Shown here: piece after piece, positions 26,306 to 44,913 of the stretch | Numbering within the stretch: the first letter of the stretch is position 1 | Layout of the letters: every line of letters begins with the position of its first letter | Source: Nitrosomonas sp. | GTDB taxonomy: Bacteria; Pseudomonadota; Gammaproteobacteria; Burkholderiales; Nitrosomonadaceae | Direction: 5' to 3' | DNA: 61,905 bases | Assembly (NCBI RefSeq): GCF_024282095.1 | Contig: NZ_JAMWZS010000013.1 | Span: 1-61,905, forward strand | Translations under genes and position numbers: made by a program | The notes under the pieces: generated by a model | What the model was told of the DNA's origin: nothing | Database searches by the model: none | The model's input: the letters and a program-made list of their open reading frames with translations, nothing else

Positions 26306-27034
26306 TTATCCTATGCTTTCTTCGTTACATTCGACTGAAAATCGATAACCCGTTCCCCGCACTGTTTGTACCAGATTCTCCTTGCCGACGGACTCAAGAA
26401 TCTTTCGTAGTCTGCGAATGTGGACATCAACGGTGCGGTCCTCGATAAATACATGATCACCCCACACGCGATCCAACAGTTGCGCGCGCGTGTGTACGCG
26501 TTCCTTATACGCCATCAGAAAGTGTAACAGGCGGAATTCAGTAGGCCCCAAACTGACTTCCGTTGGCCTTGATGGCTCATCATTGCTACAGACATGCACT
26601 CTGTGCGTGGTTGGATCAAGCCTTAATCCACCCAGTTCAATAATTTCATCCGACATTTCCGGCAAGCGCCGACGCAATACCGCTTTAATCCGGGCAATGA
26701 GCTCACGCGGCGAGAAAGGCTTGGTAATATAATCATCTGCACCGGCCTCCAGTCCTGCGATTTTGTCATTTTCCTGAATGCGGGCAGTCAGCATGATAAT
26801 CGGAATGGCCTTAGTACGCTCTTCCCGTCGTAATCGTCGCGCAAATTCCAAGCCCGTGACATCCGGTAACATCCAATCCAGTAATACGAGATCAGGAAGC
26901 ACGTTGTCGATCAATAATTTTGCTTGTTCCGCGCTATCAGCGCATAACACCATATGGCCTGCTTTTTTTAAATTGAGGGCGATCAATTCTTGAATTGCAG
27001 GCTCATCTTCAACAACGAGTATTGTTACAGCCAT
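26306..27034 (-). CDS. phoB: Phosphate regulon response regulator PhoB
   Basis: A two-component DNA-binding response regulator that activates phosphate-starvation genes. The receiver domain has the acidic pocket (VVEDEP) and the phospho-acceptor Asp in LVLLDWMLPDVTG (about residue 54). The C-terminal OmpR-type winged helix ends RRLRKILESVGKENLVQTVRGTGYRFS. RAQLLDRVWGDHVFIEDRTVDVHI is strongly PhoB-like. The 242-residue length suits. The histidine kinase gene phoR, usually next to phoB, is absent here. A Pho-box-like site lies upstream, suggesting self-regulation. Confidence 0.93.
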   Translation of the reverse strand: MAVTILVVEDEPAIQELIALNLKKAGHMVLCADSAEQAKLLIDNVLPDLVLLDWMLPDVTGLEFARRLRREERTKAIPIIMLTARIQENDKIAGLEAGADDYITKPFSPRELIARIKAVLRRRLPEMSDEIIELGGLRLDPTTHRVHVCSNDEPSRPTEVSLGPTEFRLLHFLMAYKERVHTRAQLLDRVWGDHVFIEDRTVDVHIRRLRKILESVGKENLVQTVRGTGYRFSVECNEESIG

Positions 27035-27066
27035 ATTTATATTAAATGTAATTAGGAGTTGTTGAG

Positions 27067-27100
27067 ATAATATAAATAAAGCGTTACATTTTTATGACAG
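27067..27100 (-). promoter_or_regulatory. Pho box and -10 for phoB
   Basis: On the minus strand CTGTCATAAAAATGTAACG (27100 to 27082) is followed by 9 nt and then TATTAT (27072 to 27067). It resembles two PhoB half-repeats of 11 bp standing in for a -35. Three other units in the window have the same layout. Transcription would start about 26 bp before phoB. Confidence 0.75.
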
Positions 27101-27150
27101 CCTGATGAAAATAAGAATTTTATTAAATGATGGCTATCAAATAGTCTGAT

Positions 27151-27309
27151 TTACCGGCTAATTTCTTGCCAAAGACCGATCAATTCTCCGACCAGAACTT
27201 TCACAGCGTCATATCCAGAATAAAAATCAACGTGACGTACCTCGGCGTGAAATAGGGCCGCAGGATACGAATCTGTTTGAAGACTGTCACGTTCAATGAC
27301 ATCGAACTG
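27151..27309 (-). pseudogene. Possible gene remnant between phoB and the TonB operon
   Basis: An open frame of 52 codons ends at TAA (27151-27153). It has a protein-like composition (for example AEVRHVDFYSGYDAVKVLVG and GELIGLWQEI) but begins directly after an in-frame TGA with no usable start codon. It also runs into the Pho box of the TonB operon. It may be the 3' end of a gene truncated when the island was assembled. I do not recognise the family, and a chance frame is possible. Confidence 0.25.
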
Positions 27310-27340
27310 TCATGAAAATGCAATATTCAACTTGTAGTAT
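27307..27340 (+). promoter_or_regulatory. Pho box and -10 for the TonB2 operon
   Basis: CTGTCATGAAAATGCAATA (27307-27325), 9 bp, then TAGTAT (27335-27340). The box matches the phoB box closely. Its left half also forms a dyad ATGACA-N6-TGTCAT (27296-27313), and another CTGTCAC lies at 27284-27290. Transcription would start about 20 bp before the DUF3450 gene. Confidence 0.72.
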
Positions 27341-27366
27341 GCACAAGCATTGTTGATGAGGAATTT

Positions 27367-42246: not shown

Positions 42247-42261
42247 TGTCATAGCATGACA
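42247..42261. promoter_or_regulatory. TGTCAT-N3-ATGACA dyad between pstS and pstC
   Basis: A perfect inverted repeat in the 96-bp gap between pstS and pstC, made of the same TGTCAT half site found in the Pho boxes. No -10 is at the right distance. It could be an extra PhoB contact, an RNA hairpin separating pstS from pstCAB expression, or chance. Confidence 0.35.
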
Positions 42262-42305
42262 ACGATAACAGAGTTGGGCTTAGTGCGTTTTCAGTAAACA
42301 ACACG

Positions 42306-43271
42306 ATGATGTCAAAAGTACATTCTGCAGCAAAATTAAAAAGACAACTGCTATTCGATCGGGTATTCCGTAAAACCACTTGGTTGTTTACTTTGATCGT
42401 TTTTACGCTGCTGGCGGCGCTGATTGGTTCATTAATCATTGGCAGTATGCCGGCGATCAAGACTTTCGGTTTCGATTTTCTTTTGAACGCTGAGTGGAAC
42501 CCTGTTACTGAACAATTCGGCGCACTGGTGCCGATCACGGGCACGTTGATTACTTCAATCATCGCCTTGTCGATCGGTATTCCGATCAGTTTCGGAATTG
42601 CGTTGTTTCTCACGGAATTATCTCCGCCGTGGTTACGCCGCACGCTTGGAACGGCCATCGAACTGCTGGCCGGAATTCCCAGTATTATTTACGGCATGTG
42701 GGGTTTATTCGTATTTGCGCCTTTGTTTGCAGAAACTTTGCAACCCTGGCTGCAAGATACGCTGGGACATGTACCCGGGATCGGTTTGTTATTTGAAGGC
42801 GCTTTTATGGGCATCGGCATCCTGACCGCAGGCATTATTCTGGCTATTATGGTAATTCCTTTTATTGCTGCGGTTATGCGTGATGTGTTCGAGATTGTGC
42901 CGCCCATGTTGAAGGAATCAACCTATGCGCTGGGCGCCACCACCTGGGAAGTGATCTGGTATGTGGTTCTTCCTTATACCCGTACCGGTGTTGTCGGCGG
43001 AATCATGCTGGGTTTTGGCCGCGCCTTGGGCGAAACCATGGCGGTTACGTTTGTGATCGGCAATGCACATCAATTGCATGCTTCGCTTTTCATGCCGGGA
43101 AACAGCATTGCCTCAGCGCTGGCCAATGAATTCACTGAAGCCGATGGCGAATTGTATACCTCAGCCTTGATTGAACTGGGTTTGATTTTATTTTTGATTA
43201 CTTTCATTGTACTGGCTTGCTCCAAGGTGCTGTTGATGCAACTTAAAAAACGCGAGGGCAGTACTTCCTAG
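42306..43271 (+). CDS. pstC: Phosphate ABC transporter permease PstC
   Basis: An inner membrane permease subunit of the Pst phosphate importer. The 321-residue protein has six membrane helices and the EAA-type loop ([51 protein letters not shown]). The block [17 protein letters not shown] ([22 protein letters not shown]) is typical of PstC. Two adjacent ATGs are present; the first is used. It is followed after 9 bp by pstA. Confidence 0.96.
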
Positions 43272-43280
43272 AGCCGCATC

Positions 43281-44114
43281 ATGATACCAATTTATACCCG
43301 CCGCCGCATTGTGAATGCCATTAATCTGATCTTTTCCGTACTGGCGATGGGCTTCGGTTTGTTTTGGCTGTTCTGGATCTTATTCACGCTGTTCAATAAA
43401 GGGTTGGGCGGCATGAGTGTGGCTTTATTTACGCAGATGACGCCGGCACCCGATGATACCGGTGGCTTGCTTAACGCCATTGCCGGTAGTTTGATGATGG
43501 TCACGGTTGCTACTTTGATCGGTACCCCGATCGGCATCATGGCGGGGACTTATTTGGCTGAATTCGGCCAGCGTGGCTGGCTTGCTCCCGCTACCCGCTT
43601 CATTAACGATATTTTGCTATCGGCACCGTCCATCGTGATCGGTCTTTTCATTTATACCGTTTATGTCGCCAAGGTAGGCCATTTTTCCGGCTGGGCCGGG
43701 GCACTGGCGCTATCGCTGATTGTAATTCCAGTGGTTGTGCGCACGACCGAGGATATGCTGCGACTCGTTCCGGACAGTTTGCGCGAAGCTGCCGCCGCAT
43801 TGGGCGCACCACAATGGAAAGTTGTTACGCTGGTGACTTGGCGCGCTTCCAGGGCCGGCATGCTGACGGGCATATTGTTAGCTGTTGCGCGTATCAGCGG
43901 AGAAACCGCGCCATTACTGTTCACTGCGTTGAATAATCAATTCTGGAGTGCGGACATGAATCGGCCCTTGGCTAATTTGCCGGTCGTTATCTTTCAGTTT
44001 GCCATGAGTCCATACGAATACTGGCAGGAATTGGCCTGGAGCGGCGCATTACTCATTACGCTGAGCGTTCTGGGACTGAACATTGCAGCCCGCCTGTGCT
44101 TGCGTAAGCACTAA
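43281..44114 (+). CDS. pstA: Phosphate ABC transporter permease PstA
   Basis: The second permease of the Pst system, 277 residues with six membrane helices. The inner loop [54 protein letters not shown] is the PstA version of the ATPase-contact region. [33 protein letters not shown] is also characteristic. It ends 7 bp before pstB. Confidence 0.96.
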
Positions 44115-44121
44115 TTTCTAA

Positions 44122-44913
44122 ATGATCACCGAGATGAATATAAACCATTTGCAATCCGCTGCTGCCAAAGTGACTCTGCATGATCTGGATTTTTTCTATG
44201 CCGGCTATCATGCATTGAAATCCATCAACATGCGTATCCTGGAGAAGAAGATTACCGCCTTTATTGGGCCCTCCGGCTGCGGAAAATCAACGTTGTTGCG
44301 CACCCTTAACCGCATGTACCAGCTTTATCCTGACCAACAAGCCAAGGGTGAAATTATGATGGATGGCGTCAATATTCTCGATGCGAAACAGGATTTGAAT
44401 ACGCTGCGGTCAAAAATCGGCATGGTATTTCAGAAACCGACGCCATTCCCAATGTCAATTTTCGATAATGTGGCGTTTGGCGTAAAACTGTATGAAACGT
44501 TAAATCGTTGCGAACTGGCGGAGCGGGTGGAATGGGCATTAAATAAGGCGGCACTATGGGAGGAAGTCAAGGATAAGTTGCATCAAAGCGGTACCAGTCT
44601 TTCCGGTGGCCAGCAACAGCGCTTGTGCATTGCCCGCACGATCGCAGTGAGACCCGAAGTGGTGTTGCTGGATGAGCCGACTTCAGCGCTGGATCCGATT
44701 TCCACTGCGCGCATTGAAGATCTCATCTTCAAACTCAAAGAGGATTACACCATTGTCATTGTTACGCACAATATGCAGCAGGCGGCGCGTGTTTCCGACT
44801 ATACCGCTTATATGTACTTAGGAGAGCTGATCGAGTTTGACGATACCGATACCATGTTTACTACGCCCAAGCAAAGAGCTACCGAGGATTATATTACCGG
44901 CAAATTCGGCTGA
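44122..44913 (+). CDS. pstB: Phosphate ABC transporter ATPase PstB
   Basis: The ATP-hydrolysing subunit of Pst. In its 263 residues the Walker [10 protein letters not shown] (about 50-58), the signature LSGGQQQRL (about 156-164) and the Walker [14 protein letters not shown] (about 176-188) are intact, as is the switch His ([15 protein letters not shown]). The start could instead be the Met at 44131. phoU, which usually follows pstB and links transport to signalling, is absent here. Confidence 0.97.

Follow-up and report, generated by a model that had tools for sequence, protein, structure and literature searches.

A probable phosphate-starvation module combining a TonB motor, a receptor and an ElpS-related beta-helix protein in Nitrosomonas

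Why should a complete TonB energizer operon and a TonB-dependent receptor (TBDR) lie between phoB and the phosphate transport genes pstSCAB? TonB motors are usually associated with iron, vitamin B12, copper and sugars. The arrangement in question was found in contig C52 of a 2.80-Mb, 81-contig Nitrosomonas genome; the whole stretch analyzed, 61,905 bases in length, is referred to here as the window. In a sequence-only reading of this DNA, the locus had been proposed to be a PhoB-controlled, TonB-powered island for phosphorus scavenging. Our analysis favors, with a probability of about three in four, a phosphate-starvation module made up of a private TonB motor, a receptor and an exported capture partner. 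The evidence comes from predicted Pho boxes in and outside the genus, from a core of genes kept together in relatives, and from homology to Caulobacter and Flavobacterium proteins with a low-phosphate link.

The gene content that had been listed between phoB and pstSCAB was borne out by open frames and family profile matches. From phoB on the minus strand to pstSCAB, the interval holds the energizer genes, the TBDR, pagL (minus strand), a 92-aa gene, a 537-aa protein, a PhoX-domain gene and an 87-aa membrane protein. The features of the locus are as follows.

26306..27034, minus strand: phoB, phosphate regulon response regulator (TIGR02154 equivalog, 349 bits, cut-off 296)
27083..27111, minus strand: predicted Pho box of phoB, three 11-bp half-sites (18.6 and 13.3 bits)
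27296..27324, plus strand: predicted Pho box of the energizer operon (12.7 bits at 27307, 10.0 at 27296)
27367..28134, plus strand: DUF3450 protein, TtpB-like (PF11932, E 1.9e-34)
28131..29618, plus strand: TtpC-like MotA/TolQ/ExbB protein with a long N-terminal extension (PF01618 on residues 344-462 of 495)
29627..30262, plus strand: exbB (PF01618, E 2e-25)
30259..30663, plus strand: exbD (PF02472, E 3.3e-29); by reading, translation more likely starts at an internal ATG that overlaps the stop codon of exbB
30670..31308, plus strand: tonB (PF03544, E 4.3e-23)
31334..32512, plus strand: TPR protein, TtpD-like (TPR families)
32672..35905, plus strand: TBDR with a CarboxypepD_reg domain
35918..36553, minus strand: PagL-like lipid A deacylase (PF09411, E 1.5e-15)
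36692..36970, plus strand: small exported protein, 92 aa (matches no family)
37117..37134, plus strand: predicted Pho box of the beta-helix gene (11.9 bits)
37187..38800, plus strand: ElpS-related exported beta-helix protein, 537 aa (homology, fold model, Sec-type N-terminus by eye)
39163..40497, plus strand: divergent PhoX-domain protein (PF05787, 88.6 bits, profile 169-514)
40517..40780, plus strand: small membrane protein, 87 aa (open frame; homologues of 36-48% in several loci)
41077..41094, plus strand: predicted Pho box of pstS (13.4 bits)
41163..42209, plus strand: pstS (PF12849; solved PstS, E 4.5e-122)
42306..43271, plus strand: pstC (PF00528)
43281..44114, plus strand: pstA (PF00528)
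44122..44913, plus strand: pstB (PF00005)

Is the locus likely to respond to phosphate? Putative Pho boxes were scored with a matrix built from ten E. coli Pho boxes. Of the seven top-scoring sites in the window, counting both strands, five precede phoB (18.6 and 13.3 bits), pstS (13.4 bits), the DUF3450 gene (12.7 bits) and the beta-helix gene (11.9 bits); the other two, at 5941 (14.3 bits) and 37360 (12.9 bits), do not lie before those genes. A control of 444 coding segments gave a 95% level of 8.05 bits. Sites above it were found in the upstream regions of phoB (11/11), pstS (12/12), the DUF3450 gene (24/28, comprising 20/22 in Nitrosomonas and 4/6 outside the genus) and the beta-helix gene (19/22), while the comparison regions exceeded it far less often (TBDR 3/28, TPR gene 2/30, pstC 0/12, 92-aa gene 2/11). 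The PhoX-domain gene also passed in 3/3 upstream regions, from three loci only and with a weak site. Since orthologous upstream regions share their history and are not independent, the test was repeated on beta-helix genes outside Nitrosomonas, taking the most upstream ATG as the start and using both random windows and composition shuffles as controls. In this set of 71 regions (76 loci minus five without a start or without 300 upstream bases), 41 passed the stricter of the two 95% controls, where about 4 were expected, and 24 passed the 99% control, where about one was expected. The in silico case for PhoB control of phoB, the energizer, the beta-helix gene and pstS is good, and control of this kind seems to be shared by much of the beta-helix family. 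The earlier attribution of the island to PhoB, on the strength of common promoter elements, gains in silico support from these predicted sites in the window, in relatives and in other genera. Among the genes named in a study of the C. crescentus PhoB regulon are those of the type II secretion system (T2SS) and of several TonB receptors (PMC11208175). That the locus is a PhoB-regulated phosphorus-starvation module is, in our judgment, highly probable.

Which genes belong to the module? We mapped 31 Nitrosomonas loci including the window, six of which (L038, L043, L060-L063) were too short near the TBDR for the energizer to be judged. All six energizer genes stand upstream of the TBDR in 23 of the 25 judgeable loci, window counted, which supports the earlier proposal that TonB powers the receptor; the energizer probably serves the adjacent TBDR. 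The window TonB is not the sole one of its genome, since three TonB_C matches were over cut-off; there are also seven Plug matches, some in short frames. Downstream of the TBDR, 20/25 loci have the beta-helix gene, and a divergent, adjacent phoB is present in 11 of the 22 loci with enough flank (the window is included in both counts). The TBDR itself was detected in 30/37 Nitrosomonas genomes; a weak, fragmentary match in G035, interrupted by five in-frame stops, was not counted. The beta-helix protein was found in 29 of these 30 genomes and in none of the seven TBDR-less ones; the single TBDR genome with no beta-helix match, G024, has its TBDR near a contig end. In a wider set of 61 genomes, which is part of a larger genus, 50 gave a beta-helix match (G464 had a weak match only and G457 a 79-residue fragment), and the family occurs in 51/398 genomes examined of the larger phylum. 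The closest named relative of the window, Nitrosomonas sp. Nm84 (L110), shares 96% identity across the whole beta-helix protein, and its TBDR and beta-helix genes are 96-97% identical.

Outside the genus, the named loci are the best 80 of 558 confirmed stretches and lean to nearer relatives; removing L106, L107, L109 and L110, which are Nitrosomonas or lie on a contig already counted, left 76. In 59/76 a TBDR is no more than 1.5 kb away from the beta-helix gene and in 68/76 no more than 10 kb, and the full six-gene energizer is present in 12/76. A phoB-like gene (at least 42% identity) was found in 13/76, where matches of 42-49% may include other response regulators; pst was found in 5/76 and T2SS genes in 7/76. 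Among 95 flanking open reading frames (ORFs) scanned out of 187 candidates, there were five PhoR, three PHO4 carriers, three PstS-like proteins and one PPK2. From the locus counts in relatives, the conserved core is phoB, energizer, TBDR and beta-helix gene, with Pst and the PhoX-domain gene recurrent but inconstant. The survey of relatives proposed in the sequence-only reading thus found the core kept, with two exceptions among 25 loci, but a periphery that varies. Nitrosomonas, methanotrophs and several other phyla appear to have the module in common. Two further observations concern its copy number. The single-contig Nitrosomonas genome G006 carries two copies of energizer, TBDR and beta-helix gene (L057, L058); a phoB of at least 60% identity stands beside just one copy. 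The TBDR fragment in G035 (C1:540064-540318) lies in a genome without the module and may represent a loss.

What is the beta-helix protein? It matches no Pfam family, none of four family members matched NCBIfam, and the best solved structure found by sequence had an E value of only 0.89. A structure model predicts a right-handed beta-helix fold, with matches to polysaccharide lyases, epimerases and tailspikes. Viral contigs searched for the family gave 17 pattern matches, none of which was confirmed. No SusD-type lipoprotein, as in SusCD or PusCD systems, was found as partner of the TBDR, that place being taken by the beta-helix protein with no Pfam match. The window protein shares 36-42% identity with proteins of four Flavobacteriia-type loci beside TBDRs, and 35-42% with those of seven loci with the ElpS gene order. 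Through these related loci, sequence comparison places it in the ElpS/FI-FII family, ElpS and FI being known here by description. As a side observation, many of the homologues beyond Nitrosomonas (L079-L095, Alteromonadales-type and others, with L127, L137 and L138) have two to three tandem beta-helix domains; a single lipobox-bearing frame of about 900-980 aa often spans them.

The described members of this family link it to phosphate. ElpS (CC0170) of Caulobacter is reported to be a surface lipoprotein made under phosphate starvation, released with the aid of the T2SS and encoded next to the TBDR CC0171 (PMC2996285). Named loci of Maricaulis, Henriciella, Euryhalocaulis and Kordiimonas with homologues of the window protein also show the Caulobacter order of beta-helix gene, TBDR and gspD-E-F. 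In Flavobacterium johnsoniae, FI (Fjoh_3856) is described as the most abundant exoprotein at low inorganic phosphate (Pi) and is clustered with the TonB-dependent transporter (TBDT) Fjoh_3857, and the low-Pi-induced FII (Fjoh_0546) lies in a phoBR cluster; both share 31-36% identity with ElpS over about half their length and were modelled on polygalacturonase (PMC8115612). The window pair resembles these systems in part: like ElpS and CC0171, it joins a related protein to a neighboring TBDR with a phosphate-starvation link, and like PUSIII and PUSIV of F. johnsoniae, it concerns low-Pi proteins found with a TBDT or phoBR, the polygalacturonase model being a beta-helix as here. It differs from the ElpS locus in that the Nitrosomonas proteins have no lipobox, the window genome has no GspK match over cut-off, and a six-gene energizer and often phoB are adjacent. 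It differs from the Flavobacterium systems in that FI and FII are lipoproteins and the consulted part of that report names no dedicated TtpC energizer. ElpS and FI/FII are, in these accounts, low-phosphate-induced proteins of unknown biochemistry. The phosphorus-starvation role proposed earlier for the locus is supported by this homology (PMC2996285, PMC8115612).

Could the TBDR instead import a metal, such as iron or a calcium/iron complex, which feeds the iron- and calcium-needing PhoX and PhoD enzymes during starvation? The energizer itself invites this question. Its DUF3450, TtpC, ExbB, ExbD, TonB and TPR genes, all together by Pfam profiles, are the same six gene kinds as in the TonB2/TtpB2-TtpC2-TtpD2 system of Vibrio vulnificus, where TtpB2 corresponds to the DUF3450 protein and TtpD2 to the TPR protein, and where the operon is described as iron-induced and used for siderophores (PMC6957404). 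FecA and HasR are among the best structural matches of the TBDR, although BtuB and other TBDRs score close, so these matches do not discriminate the substrate; by sequence, no solved structure was found for the TBDR at E 0.1. Seven acidic residues of the beta-helix protein (D319, D320, E323, D341, D342, D345 and E371), invariant in 60/60 alignment rows, may be compatible with metal binding, and 39/40 receptors of the TBDR family are acidic. On the other hand, the window energizer differs from TonB2 of V. vulnificus in that it is preceded by predicted Pho boxes and adjoins a single receptor of a different kind, and part of the loci are linked to phoB, phoR, pst or PHO4. ElpS is reported to be neither up-regulated by iron depletion nor repressed by FeSO4 (PMC2996285), and three Flavobacterium TBDTs are described as induced by Pi depletion only (PMC8115612). 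We consider metal import unlikely. The net charge of the receptor had been tried as a sign of phosphate binding and was rejected, being -10 here and -3 to +6 in five other TBDR-type frames of the genome.

A different possibility is that nothing is imported, the beta-helix protein being a secreted enzyme or activator whose release or surface display is energized by the TBDR and TonB. The predicted fold, with its matches to lyases, epimerases and tailspikes, would suit an enzyme, and the T2SS genes mentioned above, together with those beside the pair in 4 of 8 additional loci, would suit secretion. Over-production of ElpS was reported to raise secreted alkaline phosphatase activity, ElpS itself being no phosphatase (PMC2996285). 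Against this stands the window genome, which keeps the pair although a search for GspK gave nothing over cut-off. Moreover, we know of no TBDR for which TonB-driven export is established. An export role of this kind appears improbable, and uptake by the phosphate-starvation module is preferred.

Several observations nevertheless weigh against such a module or against parts of it. A lipobox is absent from the beta-helix protein in all 13 Nitrosomonas cases examined, including the window, vs 53/71 with a lipobox elsewhere, for which reason the Nitrosomonas proteins are classed as an ElpS-related branch and not as ElpS. GspK, the sole T2SS component searched for in the window genome, gave one match at 22 bits, below the cut-off of 24.2. 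In Caulobacter, CC0171 was reported to be constitutive, and ElpS was still produced after deletion of cc0171 (PMC2996285). The negative charge of the TBDR in 39 of 40 aligned receptors, this one included, gives no sign of a phosphate-binding surface. No Pho box was found directly before the TBDR in the window (3/28 such regions were above the 95% level, as given above), so that its control rests on read-through from the energizer; the gap between the TPR gene and the TBDR is 159 bp, and no plus-strand terminator-like site is listed there. Outside the genus, 30/71 beta-helix upstream regions fail the Pho-box test, including many GC-rich loci and four Flavobacteriia-type loci (L163, L168, L179, L185), whose PhoB motif may differ from the matrix. 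In addition, phoB is not adjacent in 11 of the 22 Nitrosomonas loci, pstS is not found at 4.5 kb or less from the beta-helix gene in 6/17 loci and so is no fixed partner, and two Nitrosomonas loci (G028 and G011) have the TBDR without an adjacent energizer, which means that the TBDR can persist apart from it. In G028, a single-contig genome, a 149-aa TPR remnant followed by transporter-type genes occupies the place of the energizer before the TBDR (L044:13293-19901).

The broken linkage of Pst in several relatives, the adjacency of phoB in just half of the loci and the two receptors that stand alone would also be expected if a general TonB system and a carbohydrate-type receptor merely adjoined phoB and pst, with no function in phosphate supply. 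However, predicted Pho boxes precede both the energizer and the beta-helix gene inside and outside the genus, and phosphate-linked homologues have been described in Caulobacter and Flavobacterium. Chance neighborhood is accordingly very unlikely, and we return to the phosphate-starvation module.

What, then, of the remaining neighbors? The claim that PhoX releases phosphate is uncertain. A divergent PhoX-domain gene follows the beta-helix gene, at no more than 2 kb, in at least 10/50 genomes (G000, G005, G007, G030, G032, G453, G454, G466, G473, G474), and a PhoX-domain gene lies within 4.5 kb of it in 3/17 Nitrosomonas loci, which makes the divergent gene a minority partner of the module. The window protein passes the Pfam PhoX cut-off of 24 with 88.6 bits, over profile positions 169-514 only, and has 444 aa vs 592 residues in the chain of solved PhoX (PDB 3zwu). 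In alignment with 3zwu, E194, E273, R385 and E387 are kept, and the E90 ligand position is ambiguous (Glu in one alignment, Asp in another). The N178-C179 stretch, in which Cys179 is presumably an iron ligand, is missing and D292 is replaced by Glu in 5/5 members of the divergent subfamily, whereas 7/7 canonical Nitrosomonas PhoX keep both. With the Cys179 segment gone and Glu at D292, the protein was not accepted as an established phosphatase. R385 and D292 have been named as metal or active-site residues, and Psip1 is reported to be active with R385 changed and D292 absent (PMC11098088); for this reason the window protein was not judged inactive, and it is best described as a candidate phosphatase whose activity is uncertain. 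Canonical full-length PhoX occurs in at least 10/61 genus genomes and is absent from the matches listed for the window genome. G030 has such a canonical PhoX (C14:48579-50306) some 3.2 kb away from its beta-helix gene. In G472, a divergent PhoX-domain gene stands beside pstS (C11:19474-21700), with the beta-helix gene on a different contig, and the divergent gene may belong with Pst.

The inclusion of Pst in the island stood in part: the distance from pstS to the beta-helix gene is at most 4.5 kb in 11/17 Nitrosomonas loci and at most about 4 kb in at least 18/50 genomes, but the linkage varies and no pst gene was found at the Nm84 island site (the rest of Nm84 was not searched for pst), which is a further point against a fixed role. 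There, chemotaxis-type and transposase-type ORFs were seen by eye in the place of pst (L110:13538-18253). PagL had also been counted as an island member and was rejected as a part of the system, being incidental: pagL is found in 1/25 Nitrosomonas loci, that of the window itself, and Nm84 has at this site a PEP-CTERM-type protein (by eye) and another ORF. The PagL-like gene is perhaps a recent arrival. The 92-aa gene occurs in 12/25 loci, and neither its product nor the 87-aa protein matched a family in an NCBIfam search. Downstream of pstB, the window contains a 392-aa frame (45606-46784) that matches no Pfam family, has the N-terminus of an exported-type protein and looks glycoside hydrolase-like by eye only.

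How might the module work? When phosphate runs out, PhoB would switch on the private TtpB-TtpC-ExbB-ExbD-TonB-TtpD motor, which would drive the adjacent TBDR. Outside the cell, the exported ElpS-type beta-helix protein would capture or trim a phosphorus-bearing molecule and hand it to the TBDR, which would take it in. Phosphate would then be freed by a periplasmic phosphatase (in some relatives canonical PhoX, here the divergent PhoX-domain protein as a candidate) and taken up by PstSCAB or another carrier. The separate parts of this scheme differ in strength. Import of an organic phosphorus compound, which the sequence-only reading supposed to be a large one, is plausible, and we see the odds of this being the substrate as evenly balanced. 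Somewhat more tentative is the specific proposal of a TtpC-type energizer dedicated to phosphorus, switched by PhoB and serving one receptor, with the beta-helix protein as extracellular capture or trimming partner in a role like that of HasA toward HasR.

How much of this is new? In outline, the receptor and beta-helix pair is already known from Caulobacter and Flavobacterium. The earlier statement that no characterized pathway has the full set holds within the literature searched, although the pair had already been tied to low phosphate. In the open-licence PubMed Central literature, judged at the level of titles and the beginnings of abstracts, we found no phosphate-linked TtpC system and no paper on phosphate starvation of Nitrosomonas. 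Within that literature, the joining of an ElpS/FI-type receptor pair to a full TtpC energizer under PhoB appears to be new. Overall, the earlier interpretation is partly supported by the present analysis.

If the proposed module is real, a PhoB-controlled set of motor and receptor would add phosphorus to the substrates served by TonB. As far as the open-licence literature searched shows, the phosphorus supply of nitrifiers has been little studied. The dedicated energizer puts a specific, testable partner beside the ElpS/FI family.

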